This document shows positions 1,505 to 8,088 of a stretch of DNA of 8,088 bases, piece by piece. The DNA lies in assembly GCA_026985515.1 (NCBI GenBank), contig JALSQH010000208.1:1-8088 (forward strand), given 5' to 3'. The notes beneath the pieces are model-generated. The model ran no database searches. It saw nothing but the letters and a program-made list of their open reading frames with translations, and had not been told where the DNA came from. Within the stretch, counting starts at the first letter, position 1. Each line of letters starts with the position of its first letter. This DNA comes from a bacterium (lineage in GTDB: Bacteria > JALSQH01). Made by a program: the position numbers and the translations under genes.

Positions 1505-3325
1505 ATGAAAAAGATAGGTATATCTTCGACATTGCCCATTGAAGTTCTCTATGCTGCAGAGTACAGGGTTTATGATCTCAACAATCTTTTTATAAATTCT
1601 CACTTACCTCAGGGTCTTATAGAGTTTGCCCATGAAACCGGTCTGTCTCGAACCACCTGCGGCTGGACAAAGGGGGTTTTTGCTGCTGCTCTTAAATTCG
1701 GATTTGATAAGGTGGTTAATGTTGTGAGTGGTGATTGTTCAAATAATCATGTTATGGGTGAAATTTTAAAGAAAAGAGGGGTGGAGGTTATACCTTTTTT
1801 CTATCCATATCCCCGGAACAGAGATGATTTAAAAAAGGAAGTGGAAAGTCTTATGCGGAGATTTGGTGTGACCTGGAGTGATGTGGAGGGTGTCTTTAAC
1901 AGATTTTCGCGAATAAGGAGCAAGCTCCTTATGCTGGAAAAAATTACGATTGAAGAGGGAAAGATCAATGGTAACGAGTTACTGGCATATCTCATTTCCG
2001 GAAGTGATATGAGAGGAAATCCTGAATCATTTGAGAAGGAGATTGATTCATTTTTATGTACAGTTGAGAAAAGGCCATCTTTGAGAAGAAAAATCAGGGC
2101 AGGAGTCATAGGCATTCCACCCATGTTCACTGACCTGTTTTCTTTTCTGGAAGAACATGATGTACAGGTAGTATACATTGAAACTGCAAAAGAATTCGGG
2201 AGAGTAGGGGAATTCAGTGATATCATTGATGTCTACCATACCTACTCATATCCTTATGAGCTTTCTTACAGACTGGAAAGAATTAAAGACGAGATTAAAA
2301 AGAGGGGAATTGATATTCTCATTCATTATGTTCAGTCATTCTGCTTTCACAGAAATGAACATCTCTTCTTCTCTGAGAATATAAGTATTCCTGTGCTGCG
2401 TGTAGAAGGGGATCTTCCCGGTCCCATGGATGAAGCAACTCGTGTGAGGGTTGAATCATTTTTAAAAAGCGCAGGTTTAAAAAGTGGGGGGGAAAGAAAT
2501 AACTACACTTACCATGGGGACGGTAAAATCGATATACCTCTGCTCGCAGTAGATGCTGGAAGCAGGAATGTTAAGATGGCCTTGAAAAAAGGGAAGGATC
2601 TTTCATTAAAAGTTGTTGATACAATTGCCTTTATAAAGAAACATATTATGCCTGCTGAAAATGGTAGAGTGGATCTATCAAGAGTGATTGTGAATTACTT
2701 TGATGAGAATGTAAAAAACTTCATTGCACTTGCAACAGGATACGGCAGACATCAGTTAAAATGGGAGAATGTGAAGGTTATTCCGGAGATAGAAGCTCAT
2801 TTCTGGGGGGTAAGAAGTGAAATAGATGAAGATGATTTCACGATTCTTGATATGGGAGGACAGGATACAAAAGTAATAAGAGTCAGAAAAGGAATAATTG
2901 ATGATTTCATTATGAATGATAAGTGTGCAGCAGGGGGAGGAAGATACCTTGAAAACATGGCAAGGATACTTGAAATACCTCTGGAGGAGATGGGGAATTA
3001 CTTTGAGAACCCGGAAAAACTGGATATAACCTGCGCCACATTTGGTGAAACAGAACTTGTGGGCAAAATGATAAAGGGGGTACCCATTGAAAGGCTGGCT
3101 GCAGGTGTAAACTGGTCAGTTTTCAGAAGATCTCTTTACCTTGTTAAAAAGCTTTATTCACCTGTTCTTGTGCTGTCTGGTGGGGTTGCACTGAACAGAG
3201 CAATTGTGAAATATTTTGAAGAAAGCGGTGAATTTGAAAAGGTTATTGTTGTGAGAGAGCCTCAATTTACAGGGGTAAAAGGACTTATTTTTTATGGAGA
3301 AAAGGAACTGGAGAAAATAGTGTGA
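1505..3325 (+). CDS. Fusion of an HgdB-like 2-hydroxyacyl-CoA dehydratase/DCCP-type Fe-S protein with its BcrAD/BadF activator ATPase
   Basis: The 606-residue protein has two domains. Residues 1-330 resemble HgdB/BcrB/BcrC (HGD-D family): the N-terminus STLPIEVLYAAEYRVYDLNNLFI matches the family start, confirming the ATG at 1505, and cysteines C52, C78 (GDCSN) and C280 (QSFCFHR) sit where family members bind a [4Fe-4S] cluster. Residues 343-606 are an ASKHA-fold activator: phosphate loops VDAGSRNVK (349-357) and LDMGGQDTK (448-456), NDKCAAGGGRYLE with C474, C510 in ITCATFGE, and SGGVALNRAI (558-567). C474 and C510 are the usual ligands of the [4Fe-4S] bridging an activator dimer. Activators hydrolyse ATP to inject low-potential electrons into their partner; here donor and acceptor share one chain. 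No separate HgdA-type subunit lies in the window, so the substrate is unknown. A double-cubane-type reductase or a maturation role are alternatives. A G7 tract lies at the junction. The stop overlaps the next GTG start (GTGA). Confidence 0.85.
   Translation: MKKIGISSTLPIEVLYAAEYRVYDLNNLFINSHLPQGLIEFAHETGLSRTTCGWTKGVFAAALKFGFDKVVNVVSGDCSNNHVMGEILKKRGVEVIPFFYPYPRNRDDLKKEVESLMRRFGVTWSDVEGVFNRFSRIRSKLLMLEKITIEEGKINGNELLAYLISGSDMRGNPESFEKEIDSFLCTVEKRPSLRRKIRAGVIGIPPMFTDLFSFLEEHDVQVVYIETAKEFGRVGEFSDIIDVYHTYSYPYELSYRLERIKDEIKKRGIDILIHYVQSFCFHRNEHLFFSENISIPVLRVEGDLPGPMDEATRVRVESFLKSAGLKSGGERNNYTYHGDGKIDIPLLAVDAGSRNVKMALKKGKDLSLKVVDTIAFIKKHIMPAENGRVDLSRVIVNYFDENVKNFIALATGYGRHQLKWENVKVIPEIEAHFWGVRSEIDEDDFTILDMGGQDTKVIRVRKGIIDDFIMNDKCAAGGGRYLENMARILEIPLEEMGNYFENPEKLDITCATFGETELVGKMIKGVPIERLAAGVNWSVFRRSLYLVKKLYSPVLVLSGGVALNRAIVKYFEESGEFEKVIVVREPQFTGVKGLIFYGEKELEKIV
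2486..2492 (+). other. G7 homopolymer at the interdomain junction (possible slippage site)
   Basis: Seven consecutive G bases cover codons 328-330, in the linker between the HgdB-like and activator domains. Reading with one extra G gives GGG GGG GGA AAG AAA TAA, a stop at 2500-2502, so a +1 transcriptional slip (or -1 ribosomal slip) would release the N-terminal domain alone. The in-frame linker after the tract has no ATG or GTG close by, so the activator half would not obviously be re-started; this argues the fusion frame is real and not a sequencing error. Actual slippage is not shown. Confidence 0.4.
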
Positions 3326-4305
3326 AAGGAATTGGACTATTATCAGGTGGTCTTGATAGTGCCATTGCCGTTTATTTGATGAAGGAGCAGGGAGTGGATA
3401 TTGTGGGAATCAACATCGATACAGGTTTTATCTCCGAGGATCTTGAAAAACTTGAGAAATTATCAGAGAGATTTAACTTCAGGGTAGAAAGGATTGATGT
3501 TTTTGAAGAGTATAAAAAAATTCTTGACAATCCACGATTTGGTTTTGGTAAGAATATGAACCCCTGTATCGATTGCAGAATACTGATGTACAGGGTGGCA
3601 AAGAAGAAGATGCAGGAGGAAAAGGCGGATTTCATTTTTACAGGTGAAGTACTGGGGCAGAGGCCCTTTTCTCAGACCCTGTATGCAGTGAAGCAGATTG
3701 AAGAAAAGAGTGACACTGCTGGCATGGTGATCAGACCCCTTTCAGCTTTTTATTTCAGACCCACGGGTGTGGAATTGTCTGGCAGGATTAACAGAAGTAA
3801 ATTCCTTTCTATCAAAGGACGGAACAGGAAAGTACAGCTTAAACTTGCAGAATTGTGGAAACTGAATGAGTTCAATTCACCTTCAGGTGGGTGTCTTCTC
3901 ACCGATCCAGGTTTTTCCCGGAAGCTGAAGGAGTGGATAAGGATTGCAGGTGGGGCAACCAATCTGACACGGGAGATGGTTGAAATTATGAAAATTGGAA
4001 GGCACATCAAACTATCAGACAGATCTATTCTTGTGGTGGGGAGAAACAGATCAGAAAATAGCAGGTTAGAAGAGATGTCAGGAAATTATGTAACGCTTAA
4101 GACCATGGAATTTCCGGGACCCACTGCCATTATTTTTGGTGATCTGACGGAGAGAGAAATCCGTCATGCTTCTGAAATTGTGGCAAGATACAGTGATGCG
4201 CCTGCGGGAGGAGAAGTTAGAGTGAAAGTGATGGACCAAGAAGGTAAAAACAGTTTTGTTAGAATAAAAGTGGATAAAAAATTGAAATACAGTATTATAA
4301 CCTGA
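3322..4305 (+). CDS. PP-loop ATP pyrophosphatase, tRNA thiolation (ThiI/MnmA-like) with C-terminal NFACT-R-like domain
   Basis: The 327-residue protein starts at a GTG sharing GTGA with the upstream stop, with GGAG at 3310-3313. The N-terminal PP-loop SGGLDSA (8-14) adenylates a target base in this superfamily. Family blocks follow: NPCIDCR (C82, C85), FTGEVLGQRPFSQ (106-118), IRPLSA (137-142), GRNRKVQLKLAE (166-177) and SPSGGCLLTDPGFS (186-199, C191). Residues from about 220 to 327 (GRHIKLSDRSILVVGRNRSE, then PGPTAIIFGD) resemble the NFACT-R (DUF814) RNA-binding-type domain that accompanies thiouridine-synthase-like PP-loop enzymes. A tRNA uridine sulfur transferase is therefore the best call; databases often label such proteins ThiI, though the THUMP and rhodanese domains of classical ThiI are absent. 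The three cysteines (CxxC plus GGC) could hold a [4Fe-4S] cluster as in cluster-dependent thiolases, or act in persulfide relay; this is inference. Tight coupling to the fused Fe-S protein and the following cluster-assembly genes fits that idea. Confidence 0.8.
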   Translation: MKGIGLLSGGLDSAIAVYLMKEQGVDIVGINIDTGFISEDLEKLEKLSERFNFRVERIDVFEEYKKILDNPRFGFGKNMNPCIDCRILMYRVAKKKMQEEKADFIFTGEVLGQRPFSQTLYAVKQIEEKSDTAGMVIRPLSAFYFRPTGVELSGRINRSKFLSIKGRNRKVQLKLAELWKLNEFNSPSGGCLLTDPGFSRKLKEWIRIAGGATNLTREMVEIMKIGRHIKLSDRSILVVGRNRSENSRLEEMSGNYVTLKTMEFPGPTAIIFGDLTEREIRHASEIVARYSDAPAGGEVRVKVMDQEGKNSFVRIKVDKKLKYSIIT

Positions 4306-4320
4306 CAAAAGGGGGATGTT

Positions 4321-4626
4321 ATGGAAAAAATTACAGAGGAAAAAGTCCTTGAAGTTTTAAAGGGTGTTATTGATCCAGAAATTGGTATGGATGTGGTGAA
4401 TCTTGGTCTTGTGTATGATGTGCAGATCACAGATGATAATGTCGTGAAGGTAAAAATGACAATGACTGTGCCAGGTTGCCCACTTCAGAACCAGATTCTG
4501 ATGGCGGCAGAACAGGCTATACTTTCAATACCTGGTGTTAAAGATGCCATTGTGGAACTGGTATGGGAGCCTCCATGGAATCCAAATATGATGTCTGAGG
4601 AAGCAAAGAAGAGGCTGGGTTATTGA
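4321..4626 (+). CDS. MIP18/DUF59 family Fe-S assembly factor (SufT/PaaD-like)
   Basis: This 101-residue protein is a single MIP18 (DUF59) domain of normal length. Hallmarks are VIDPEIGMDVVNLGLVYDV (17-35), the TVPGCP motif with C53 (49-54) and the end VWEPPWNPNMMSEEAKKRLG (81-100), typical of stand-alone bacterial members. Such proteins aid Fe-S cluster maturation or transfer in the cytosol, sometimes as SufT in SUF pathways; C53 is the candidate functional residue. GGGGG at 4311-4315 precedes the ATG by five bases and is a good ribosome binding site. It lies 15 bases after the PP-loop gene and 30 bases before the Mrp ATPase, the usual partner type, so joint cluster delivery is a reasonable inference. 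Confidence 0.9.
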   Translation: MEKITEEKVLEVLKGVIDPEIGMDVVNLGLVYDVQITDDNVVKVKMTMTVPGCPLQNQILMAAEQAILSIPGVKDAIVELVWEPPWNPNMMSEEAKKRLGY

Positions 4627-4656: not shown

Positions 4657-5715
4657 ATGGAAGAAAGAATTTTAGAAGTGCTGAGAAAGGTCAAGTATCC
4701 TGGTTATTCAAGGGACATAGTCTCTTTTGGAATGGTTAAATCAATTAATTATGACAATGGAAGGCTCGAACTGGAAATTGAAGTTGTAACAAAGGATCCT
4801 GAAGTCCCCAAAAAGCTTGAGGAATCCATTACAAATGTAATCTATCAGGAATTGAGAAATGAGGTAAAGGAACTTGATCTCAAAATAAATCTCGCAAAGG
4901 GAGAACCAACCAGGGGGAAAGAGGCTGAGAATCCATTCATTGGACAGTCTGCCATACCGGGTGTCAAATATCTTATTGCAGTTGCCTCAGGTAAGGGTGG
5001 AGTTGGCAAAACTTTTGTGGCAGTTAATCTTGCTGCCGCCCTACACAAACTTGGACATAAGGTTGGAATAATGGATGCGGATGTGTATGGTCCAAATGTA
5101 CCTCTTATGCTGGGCCTTGTTGGGGAAAGACCCCGTGCTACAGAGGACAAGAAAATCTATCCCATCGAAAAGGATGGTATGAAAGTTATTTCGATGGGAT
5201 TTTTTGTTGAGGAAGGAGTTCCAATAATCTGGAGGGGACCTCTTGTAAATAAGTTGCTGGAGCAGTTTATAAATGATGTAATATGGGGTGAACTTGATTT
5301 CCTGATAGTTGATATGCCTCCAGGAACCGGTGATGTCCAGCTTACAATGGCACAGAAATCAAAGTTAAATGGAGCAATAATGGTTACAACGCCACAGGAT
5401 ATTGCTCTCAGCGATGTTCTGAGAGGCGAGGAGATGTTTAAAAAGGTAAATGTGCCAGTTCTTGGTGTTGTGGAAAATATGAGTTACTTTGTGTGTCCAC
5501 ACTGTGGAAAGAAAACTGATATTTTCAGCCATGGGGGTGCCAAAAAACTTGCTGAGAAGGCTGGCATAGACCTCCTGGGTGAATTACCACTTGATCCCAC
5601 ATTGAGAGAATTCAGCGACGAGGGTAAACCTATTGTTCTTGTGGATCCTGAGCATCCTGTAGCGAAAACATTTTTTGAGATAGCTGAAAAGGTTTACAAA
5701 AAGTTATCGGGATAG
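4657..5715 (+). CDS. mrp: Mrp/ApbC family P-loop Fe-S cluster carrier ATPase
   Basis: The 352-residue protein has a MIP18/DUF59-like N-terminal domain (about 1-80) followed by a ParA/MinD-type NTPase (about 103-350), the standard long Mrp architecture. It shows the deviant Walker A SGKGGVGKT (111-119), DADVYGPN (140-147), Walker B-type VDMPPGTGD (218-226) and the CPHC motif (280-283), whose two cysteines bind a bridging [4Fe-4S] cluster in the dimer. Mrp/ApbC/NBP35 proteins load and pass clusters to apo-enzymes in the cytosol in a nucleotide-dependent way. AAAAGGAG lies a few bases before the ATG. The N-terminal domain has lost the TxPxCP cysteine (VTKDPEVPKK, 44-53), while the separate MIP18 protein just upstream keeps it. 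Position after two Fe-S-related genes suggests it serves them, although Mrp clients are usually broad. A terminator-like hairpin lies inside the gene at 5159-5205. Confidence 0.95.
   Translation: MEERILEVLRKVKYPGYSRDIVSFGMVKSINYDNGRLELEIEVVTKDPEVPKKLEESITNVIYQELRNEVKELDLKINLAKGEPTRGKEAENPFIGQSAIPGVKYLIAVASGKGGVGKTFVAVNLAAALHKLGHKVGIMDADVYGPNVPLMLGLVGERPRATEDKKIYPIEKDGMKVISMGFFVEEGVPIIWRGPLVNKLLEQFINDVIWGELDFLIVDMPPGTGDVQLTMAQKSKLNGAIMVTTPQDIALSDVLRGEEMFKKVNVPVLGVVENMSYFVCPHCGKKTDIFSHGGAKKLAEKAGIDLLGELPLDPTLREFSDEGKPIVLVDPEHPVAKTFFEIAEKVYKKLSG
5159..5205 (+). terminator. Terminator-like perfect 12-bp hairpin plus T-run inside mrp
   Basis: ATCCCATCGAAA (5159-5170) is exactly complementary to TTTCGATGGGAT (5189-5200), with an 18-base loop, and the 3' arm runs into six T bases (5200-5205). 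This has the shape of an intrinsic terminator, though the stem is only moderately GC-rich and the loop is long. It lies in the mrp coding region over codons for YPIEKDGMKVISMG, well-conserved protein sequence. Whether it stops or pauses transcription is unknown; the structure is seen directly, the function is inference. Confidence 0.3.
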
Positions 5716-5734: not shown

Positions 5735-7153
5735 ATGCTTAAAGGAAATCTTTTAAAAACTGATTTTCCGGAAATACTCATGAGAATATATGAATCAAAG
5801 CTAACGGGAGAATTGCAGGTTGAGAATGGCAACATAAGAAAGGTGGTTTTTTTTCTTGGAGGACATCCGGTTTTTGCAAGATCCAACGCTGTTGAGGATA
5901 GGATTGGAAGATTAATTTATGAAAGTGGAAAAGTTTCTAAAGAGAAGCTGGAGGAAGCCCTCAGACTTGCAAAAAAGTACAACAAAAAGGTTGGACTTGT
6001 GCTGGTTAAAATGAATATTCTTACTGCTGGAGAATTGTATGAACTTGTTATACAACAGGTAAGAAAGATAATTGATTCGCTCTTTCAGTGGGAGTCAGGG
6101 AGGTATATTTTTACTGAGAGATCATCTCTTCCACAGGAGGTAATAACCCTTGAAGAGAATCCGGCAAGTATTATTTTTAATGGTATTATCAGAAACTACA
6201 CTGAAGAAAGAGTAATCAAGAGGCTTGGCACACTGAATGCTGTTTTCAAAAAAATAAAGAGTCCATTTTTCAAACTACCCTCTCTTCCTTTAACGGAATC
6301 TGGCATTGAAATTCTACAAGCCATTGATGGTAAGAAGAATCTGAAAACACTTATAAAAGAACTGCCTTATTCCAGAAAGGAAATTTTGACGACTGTTTAT
6401 GCTCTGATGGTTCTGAAATTTATTGAACCTGTGGAGATGCTTGAAACTGCTGAGGATCTATACAGAAAGGAAAGACTTGTTGAAATTCTGAATAAATTTG
6501 AATCCACCAACCTGTTTCAATGGCTCGGAGTAACTCCAGATGCTACAAGGGAAGAAATAATAGAAGCTTACTCAAGGCTGTCACGTAAATTTGGAAAAGA
6601 GTTTCTTCCTGCATTTATTTCTGAAGAAGTCGCAGATCTCTGTGAGAAAATTTTTGAAAAGATAACAGAAGCATATTCATTTTTAGTGGATGAAGATTTA
6701 AAAAAATATTACGCAGGTCTCATAAAAAGCGGAGTAAGTACAGAAAAAGCTTTGAATCTTCTAAAGAAAAAATACGCCCGACAGCTCTTTGAGGAGGGAA
6801 AAGAGCTGTACAGGAACAACAAACTTCACGAAGCACATAGAAAGTTTATGGAAGCCATAAAGTATGACCCCACTGAGGCGGATTACTACACTGCTGTTGC
6901 ACTTACCGATCTCACCGATATAGAAGGGTATGAACCTGACTTTGATGAAGCTGAGAGGATGCTGAAAGAAGCACTAAATCTCCAGATGCACCAGCCCCGC
7001 AATTACTTCTACCTTGGTCAGATGTATAAACATCTTGGAAATTATATTCTTGCCAAAAAGTATCTTACCCAGGCTCTTGAAGTGGACCCTAACTACGTTT
7101 ATGCCAAAAAGGCACTTGAAGAGGTGAAGAAACTCGAGAAAATGAGGGGATAA
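5735..7153 (+). CDS. PATAN (DUF4388) domain protein with degenerate J-like domain and C-terminal TPR repeats
   Basis: The 472-residue cytosolic protein begins with a PATAN/DUF4388 domain (1-130): LKGNLLKTDFPEILMRIY, KLTGELQVENG, VVFFLGGHPVFARSN and a helical part ending LFQWESGRYIF. PATAN domains are protein-interaction modules often found with signalling, gliding or regulatory proteins. Residues 185-235 look like a small winged-helix region. Residues 258-327 (NLFQWLGVTPDATREEIIEAY ... IFEKITEAYSFLVDEDLKKYY) match a J-domain in pattern, but the HPD that stimulates Hsp70 ATPase is replaced by GKE (287-289), so it is probably a scaffold. The C-terminus has three TPR-like units (about 346-380, 384-416 and 420-453, with the last reading NYFYLGQMYKHLGNYILAKKY). 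AAAGGA before the ATG acts as ribosome binding site. A T8 run at 5847-5854 is present. It is followed one base later by def, and a second PATAN-like gene follows def. The precise role is unknown; an adaptor is inferred. Confidence 0.85.
   Translation: MLKGNLLKTDFPEILMRIYESKLTGELQVENGNIRKVVFFLGGHPVFARSNAVEDRIGRLIYESGKVSKEKLEEALRLAKKYNKKVGLVLVKMNILTAGELYELVIQQVRKIIDSLFQWESGRYIFTERSSLPQEVITLEENPASIIFNGIIRNYTEERVIKRLGTLNAVFKKIKSPFFKLPSLPLTESGIEILQAIDGKKNLKTLIKELPYSRKEILTTVYALMVLKFIEPVEMLETAEDLYRKERLVEILNKFESTNLFQWLGVTPDATREEIIEAYSRLSRKFGKEFLPAFISEEVADLCEKIFEKITEAYSFLVDEDLKKYYAGLIKSGVSTEKALNLLKKKYARQLFEEGKELYRNNKLHEAHRKFMEAIKYDPTEADYYTAVALTDLTDIEGYEPDFDEAERMLKEALNLQMHQPRNYFYLGQMYKHLGNYILAKKYLTQALEVDPNYVYAKKALEEVKKLEKMRG
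6781..6809 (+). repeat. Perfect 10-bp inverted repeat with a purine loop inside the PATAN-TPR gene
   Basis: ACAGCTCTTT (6781-6790) and AAAGAGCTGT (6800-6809) are exact complements around the 9-base loop GAGGAGGGA. The loop resembles a Shine-Dalgarno sequence but no start codon follows at suitable spacing. It lies at the J-like/TPR boundary of the encoded protein. It may be chance. Confidence 0.3.
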
Positions 7154-7154
7154 A

Positions 7155-7697
7155 ATGAGTGTGAGAGAAATTAAAATTTTTCCAGATAAGATATTGAGAC
7201 AGGAAGCAAGAGAAATTGAAAACATAGATTCATCCATCAATGATCTTGCGAGGGATATGCTTGAAACAATGTATAAAGCTCCTGGTATTGGTCTTGCTGC
7301 CAATCAGGTGGGGGTTGATTTAAGATTAATAGTGGTTGATGTTGCTCCCAGAGAGGATAGGGGAAAGAACCCAATTATCCTTGTTAATCCTGTTATTGTG
7401 GAGAGGGAAGGGGAGATAGTCTGGGAGGAAGGCTGTCTCAGTGTACCCGGGATGAATGCAGAGGTTGAGAGAAATTACAGAGTTCTGGTTAAGGGTTTCG
7501 ATTTAAATGAGAGGGAAGTTACTATTGAAGGTGAGGAATTGCTTGCGGTTGTGCTCCAGCATGAAATAGATCATTTAAATGGTGTCCTTTATTTTGACCA
7601 ACTCAGCAGACTGAAAAAGGAATTTTTTCTGAAAAGTTACAGGAAGTATCTCAGAGAGCATGTTGACACTGAAAAATCCAAAAGGATCAGGGTGTGA
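7155..7697 (+). CDS. def: Peptide deformylase
   Basis: This 180-residue enzyme removes the formyl group from the N-terminal methionine of new proteins at the ribosome exit, releasing formate. All three motifs are intact: GIGLAANQVG (44-53), EEGCLSVPG (91-99) with metal ligand C94, and QHEIDHLNG (135-143) with metal ligands H136 and H140 and catalytic E137. Length and the N-terminus (REIKIFPDKILRQEA) are normal, so the ATG at 7155 is right; GAGGGGA at 7144-7150 is the ribosome binding site, within the end of the previous gene. Usual partner genes such as fmt or priA are not seen; instead it lies between two PATAN-domain genes, one base after the first and overlapping the second by GTGA. The tail after residue 150 is lysine/arginine rich, as in many bacterial forms. 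Essential housekeeping function is established for the family. Confidence 0.97.
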   Translation: MSVREIKIFPDKILRQEAREIENIDSSINDLARDMLETMYKAPGIGLAANQVGVDLRLIVVDVAPREDRGKNPIILVNPVIVEREGEIVWEEGCLSVPGMNAEVERNYRVLVKGFDLNEREVTIEGEELLAVVLQHEIDHLNGVLYFDQLSRLKKEFFLKSYRKYLREHVDTEKSKRIRV

Positions 7698-8088
7698 CCT
7701 ATCATTTAAGTTTTAATCAGAGGTTTTTTGAGATACTTGCAAAAGCCTATCTTGATTCTTTCAATGGGACTCTTTCTGCATCAAGAGGAGATACGAGGAA
7801 AAGTGTTTCCCTTATGTTTGGAAAAATTATAAGTGCATCTTCCAATGCAAAAATAGATAGACTGGAACTCTGGTTTTACAAGAAGAAGTTTCTCTCAAAA
7901 GATGAAATAGCAAAATTCTCCCAACTTGCGAGAAAAAAGAAAATAAGCTTCTGGAAAGCCATTGTACTATCAAAAAGATTCTCTGATCAGCAGTTATCAG
8001 AATTGATTACCGAGAGGATAGTTGAAATTCTATATGACCTTTTTACATGGACCGAGGGGACAGTTGAAGTTCTTGAAGGCGAATACAC
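7694..8088 (+). CDS. Second PATAN (DUF4388)-like protein, 3' truncated by the window
   Basis: A GTG at 7694, sharing GTGA with the def stop and preceded by AAAGGA (7681-7686), opens a frame that stays open to the window edge (131 complete codons). The product resembles the N-terminal PATAN region of the 5735-7153 protein: YLDSFNGTLSASRGDTRKSV (19-38) parallels the KLTGELQVENGNIRKVV block, IISASSN (45-51) parallels PVFARSN, then a helical region, and IVEILYDLFTWTEGTVEV (109-126) parallels VRKIIDSLFQWESGRYIF. It is therefore likely a diverged paralogue with a PATAN-like domain first. Remaining domains lie outside the window. Overlap with def indicates co-translation. Family assignment rests on the pattern match to its neighbour; function is unknown. 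Confidence 0.7.
   Translation, partial: MTYHLSFNQRFFEILAKAYLDSFNGTLSASRGDTRKSVSLMFGKIISASSNAKIDRLELWFYKKKFLSKDEIAKFSQLARKKKISFWKAIVLSKRFSDQQLSELITERIVEILYDLFTWTEGTVEVLEGEY

Follow-up and report, generated by a model that had tools for sequence, protein, structure and literature searches.

HadBC/I and BzdNOPQ act on CoA thioesters and bring together two different HGD-D subunits and an HgdC-type activase. In HadB and BzdO three cysteines hold a [4Fe-4S] cluster with one open iron, and activases of the HgdC type pass electrons to HGD-D proteins in an ATP-dependent manner (PMC11971306). In the DCCP/DCCP-R system a reductase of a single type is driven by an activase, and the [8Fe-9S] double cubane is held by six cysteine ligands per monomer. 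Acetylene, hydrazine and azide are all reduced by DCCP, and it has been proposed that new catalytic functions arise in the HAD/BCR/double-cubane superfamily when a sub-cluster is lost (PMC11971306). The nitrile of preQ0 is reduced in queuosine synthesis by QueF (PF14489), which works with NADPH and a thioimide cysteine and needs neither an Fe-S cluster nor ATP. Reduction of preQ0 to preQ1 takes four electrons, for which QueF spends two NADPH.

The DNA analysed here (the window) spans positions 1 to 8,088 of contig JALSQH010000208.1 from the 2.36 Mb genome of a JALSQH01 bacterium (assembly GCA_026985515.1). A gene on its forward strand (1505..3325) encodes a 606-aa protein that we regard as a candidate preQ0 reductase. 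As a preliminary description of this locus had stated, an HgdB-like [4Fe-4S] reductase domain and an ATP-driven activase lie in one chain, which distinguishes the protein from DCCP/DCCP-R. The HgdB-like (HGD-D) domain occupies residues 1-335 (1505..2509), with PF06050 matching residues 10-320 at 92.5 bits against a cut-off of 28.4 (E 5e-26). The activase, a BadF/HgdC-type ASKHA ATPase, occupies residues 343-606 (2531..3322), with TIGR00241 matching residues 347-593 at 148.7 bits against a cut-off of 125.4. No match to the QueF T-fold nitrile reductase model PF14489 was found in the fusion protein, and its fold is unrelated to that of QueF. An AlphaFold model built with 78 sequences has a mean pLDDT of 91, and the linker at residues 326-337 alone is disordered. 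In this model the HgdB-like half superposes on BzdN, DCCP and HadC chains with Z 30-32 over ~312 residues, while the activase half matches solved activators with Z 27. The best PDB sequence matches of the reductase half are the DCCP entries 6ENO and 7YYL (E 4e-16 and 8e-16, Z ~31).

In an alignment of 71 diverse relatives the only conserved cysteine positions are Cys52 (codon 1658..1660), Cys78 in a GDCSN motif (1736..1738) and Cys280 in an HYxQxFC motif (2342..2344), all three invariant in 71/71 and predicted to be [4Fe-4S] ligands. In the activase half, Cys474 (NDKCAAG, 2924..2926) and Cys510 (TCATFGE, 3032..3034) align with both cluster cysteines of the solved activators 4eht/1hux and are the expected ligands of a dimer-bridging [4Fe-4S] cluster. 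Fold, HGD-D score and the three cysteines thus place the fusion in the PF06050 superfamily, with a cluster predicted from the sequence. It shares with HadBC/I and BzdNOPQ the HGD-D fold, the three cluster cysteines and the HgdC-type activase, but has one type of HGD-D subunit and no CoA-pathway genes. The locus lacks the two different, jointly encoded HGD-D subunits of a functional 2-hydroxyacyl-CoA dehydratase. The preliminary description had noted that classical partners are absent, and indeed the window contains no HgdA-type or acyl-CoA gene; a protein search of the whole genome with the HgdB-like half as query (E<=1e-3) also returned no second homologue, though a very distant HGD-D subunit could have escaped it. 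With three conserved cysteines per monomer, the six-ligand set of a double cubane is likewise missing. Because the three further cysteines of DCCP have no counterpart in the HgdB-like family, a single three-cysteine [4Fe-4S] cluster with an open iron is expected.

We compared the distribution of the family with those of QueC, which marks synthesis of preQ0, and QueF in 386 genomes. The HgdB-like family is present in 45/67 genomes that have QueC and lack QueF, but in 0/183 that have both and in 0/136 that lack QueC (Fisher p 2.7e-33, without phylogenetic correction; 30 families). Profile matches are bimodal, with all 45 genomes at E below 1e-59 and none from there to 1e-15. The pattern persists with one genome per family (98 genomes), where the counts are 13/18, 0/45 and 0/35 for the same three classes (p 8e-10). 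It also persists among genomes with both QueH and QueC, a restriction that controls for anaerobic life: 13/16 of those without QueF carry the family, as against 0/17 of those with it (p 1e-6). All 13 family-positive genomes of the one-per-family set contain QueC and QueA, and none contains a true QueF. In the reverse direction, true QueF is absent from 49 of 50 named genomes chosen for carrying the HgdB-like family, all 12 isolates included; a few of these 50 are also among the 386. The family and QueF are almost mutually exclusive across genomes. What the family truly goes together with is the making of preQ0 in the absence of QueF.

The window's own genome fits this distribution. QueC and QueD are paired on contig C194, QueA and Tgt on C33, and C118 carries QueH (by Pfam); a genome search found no QueF, so that the gap in the pathway is the step from preQ0 to preQ1.

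The QueC+/QueF- pattern indicates that the fusion very probably fills the missing QueF step. Taking it together with the domains, invariant cysteines, fold, gene neighbourhood (below) and own-genome gap, all of which are observed, we are fairly confident that the fusion stands in for QueF as an oxygen-sensitive preQ0 reductase of the queuosine pathway, an Fe-S enzyme driven by ATP whose chemistry is predicted from genomic evidence. The best reading of the distribution is a non-orthologous replacement of QueF in anaerobes: the two proteins would share a reaction and a place in the pathway. It is likely, in our view, that the HgdB-like family constitutes a second, unrelated class of nitrile reductase, belonging to the HAD/BCR/double-cubane superfamily and making preQ1 in many anaerobic lineages.

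We infer the substrate, the four-electron course and the delivery of electrons inside the fused dimer as follows. The activase half would dimerize around one [4Fe-4S] cluster, hydrolyze ATP and hand low-potential electrons singly to the HgdB-like half, the fusion placing electron donor and acceptor within one homodimer. There, the open iron of the [4Fe-4S] cluster on Cys52, Cys78 and Cys280 would bind or activate the nitrile of preQ0 (7-cyano-7-deazaguanine), either as the free base or already in tRNA, and four single-electron steps would convert this nitrile to the aminomethyl group of preQ1. Such chemistry fits the substrate range of DCCP, the nearest relative by sequence. The main chemical objection is cost, as an ATP-driven one-electron donor is expensive compared with the NADPH-dependent QueF.

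Several observations count against a preQ0 reductase. The family is missing from 22 of the 67 QueC+QueF- genomes (G001, G030, G032, G079, G087 and 17 others), which may reflect incomplete assemblies (several are incomplete), other uses of preQ0, use of QueC for other 7-deazaguanines, or a third preQ0 reductase. One metagenome-assembled genome, G100 (locus L048), is the only sampled family-positive genome with a true QueF (90.7 bits), owing either to contamination or to real redundancy. The window copy of the fusion gene adjoins no que gene. We also count against it the absence of an upstream preQ1 riboswitch in the 49 sources scanned, as well as the company of murI, rph and rdgB described below.

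Elsewhere the gene neighbourhood does lead to queuosine synthesis. We collected 119 HgdB-like loci with flanks of up to 10 kb, of which 114 were distinct after removal of 5 duplicates, and checked the identities of que neighbours by NCBIfam/Pfam. Already among the first relatives examined QueE adjoined the HgdB-like gene in two, with QueC or DUF366 close by. Over the full set 15/114 loci have QueE on the same strand at a distance of no more than 300 bp, where roughly 0.1 would be expected; several of them also have QueD, QueC and DUF366. Armatimonadota, WS1/Zipacnadia and UBP13 are among the lineages represented. In all, 12 loci contain QueD, 9 contain DUF366 and 6 contain QueC. A separate activase gene is adjacent to the HgdB-like gene in 58/114 loci, and the only other fused copy seen occurs in the order QueC-QueE-fusion (G088, locus L034). 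Proximity to murI (30 of 114 loci), rdgB (22) and rph (21) was observed in loci L046-L125 (e.g. L051, L067, L094). These surroundings occur mainly in Desulfotomaculia, murI also in Geobacter relatives, and we read them as conserved housekeeping synteny within a small number of lineages.

The contact with QueE in 15/114 loci, together with QueH in 13/13 family-positive genomes, could also mean that the fusion uses ATP to reduce the radical-SAM enzyme QueE or the epoxyqueuosine reductase QueH and does not itself reduce preQ0. We consider this unlikely: the 183 QueC+QueF+ genomes need QueE too and all lack the family, as do 17/17 genomes with QueH, QueC and QueF, and preQ0 reduction would stay unfilled in 45 genomes. 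The superfamily membership of the fusion and its mostly anaerobe-like hosts would also suit a dehydratase of 2-hydroxyacyl-CoA catabolism or a reductase of small molecules like DCCP, with the link to missing QueF in either case an artefact of lineage or lifestyle. This is highly improbable given that the QueF pattern survives both the one-genome-per-family and the QueH+ restrictions and that linkage to QueE, QueC and QueD spans several phyla; the single HGD-D subunit without acyl-CoA genes and the lack of the three additional cysteines of DCCP also count against it.

The preliminary description had instead proposed that the fusion donates electrons to the product of the next gene for an Fe-S-dependent tRNA thiolation. 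That gene (3322..4305, forward strand, GTG start, 327 aa) does overlap the fusion gene in a GTGA stop/start at 3322..3325, and its product has the three cysteines ascribed to it (Cys82, Cys85 and Cys191). It joins a ThiI-type PP-loop (PF02568, SGGLDS) to NFACT-R_2 (PF18297, residues 226-312) and is a probable tRNA thiolation enzyme. Like ThiI/NcsA/TtcA it combines a PP-loop with three cysteines, but it has NFACT-R where enzymes of that type have THUMP, and it reaches 58.7 bits against a cut-off of 264.5 with the full-length ThiI model TIGR00342, of which only the PP-loop part matches.

Such a partnership seems scarcely plausible after comparison of loci and genomes, and we dropped it. In 0/114 distinct loci does the PP-loop gene occur near the HgdB-like gene (within ~8-10 kb), and although both genes are present in 11 sampled genomes they share a contig in the window's genome only, the outcome that the preliminary description had named as counting against its proposal. 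The contact is a peculiarity of this genome. In the set of 98 genomes, with the HgdB-like half in 13 (one marginal match left out) and the PP-loop gene in 40 (E below 1e-25), co-occurrence was weak, the PP-loop gene being present in 11/13 family-positive genomes versus 29/85 others (p 0.001), and it lost significance in the QueH+ subset of anaerobe-type genomes (p 0.17). The PP-loop gene does without the HgdB-like family in 29 sampled genomes, and to our knowledge known PP-loop thiolases need no activase. What stands of the earlier proposal is its direction, a most likely role in tRNA modification (here queuosine) rather than acid fermentation; the thiolation link found no support. Another candidate function, first suggested by the QueE/QueC neighbours, was reduction of epoxyqueuosine in place of QueG or QueH. 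We rejected it because QueH is present in all 13 family-positive genomes, none of which has QueG above the cut-off.

The neighbours of the PP-loop gene vary in other genomes. A cysteine desulfurase gene directly follows it in two and a Mrp-type gene in one (loci L210, L220, L233), and a LarE-like PP-loop gene is a neighbour in three. With a Mrp gene also near it in the window, the desulfurase and Mrp neighbours suggest a sulfur-transfer tRNA enzyme that works alone. The rest of the window holds a DUF4125 gene upstream of the fusion (928-1464) and, downstream of the PP-loop gene, genes for a SufT/DUF59 protein (4321-4626), the Mrp/ApbC Fe-S carrier (4657-5715), a DUF4388-TPR protein with DnaJ-like and TPR regions (5735-7153) and a peptide deformylase (7155-7697), on the other side of which lies a second DUF4388 protein (7694-8086).

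Reconstructions of queuosine metabolism require QueF for the status of full de novo producer (PMC6593275, PMC11130926), and under this rule genomes with the HgdB-like family would be scored as salvagers despite making preQ0. If the family is a preQ0 reductase, the gap would be closed in many anaerobes, including Geobacter relatives, Desulfotomaculia, Armatimonadota and Coatesbacteria among others, and proteins whose sole present annotation is "2-hydroxyglutaryl-CoA dehydratase" would gain a physiological role. The reactions of ATP-driven Fe-S reductases would then include nitrile reduction, which is close to what nitrogenase and DCCP catalyse, and within the literature surveyed this would be the first biosynthetic role in tRNA modification assigned to the superfamily. 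In that literature, mostly open-access journal papers, we found no publication tying queuosine to hydroxyglutaryl-type enzymes; an earlier description may exist.

Two further arrangements were seen among the collected loci. At L045:80-2625 an HGD-D-like protein overlaps a 559-aa protein composed of a second HGD-D-like part and an activase, an arrangement very distant from the HgdB-like family (E 7e-4). DUF366 (PF04017) occurs beside QueE and the HgdB-like gene in a QueC-QueD-DUF366-QueE-HgdB-like run in 9 distinct loci (L109, L111, L105, L120, L092, L108, L160, L174 and L037), with strand shared and no more than 1 kb between in 8 of the 9, and is probably a protein of the queuosine pathway.
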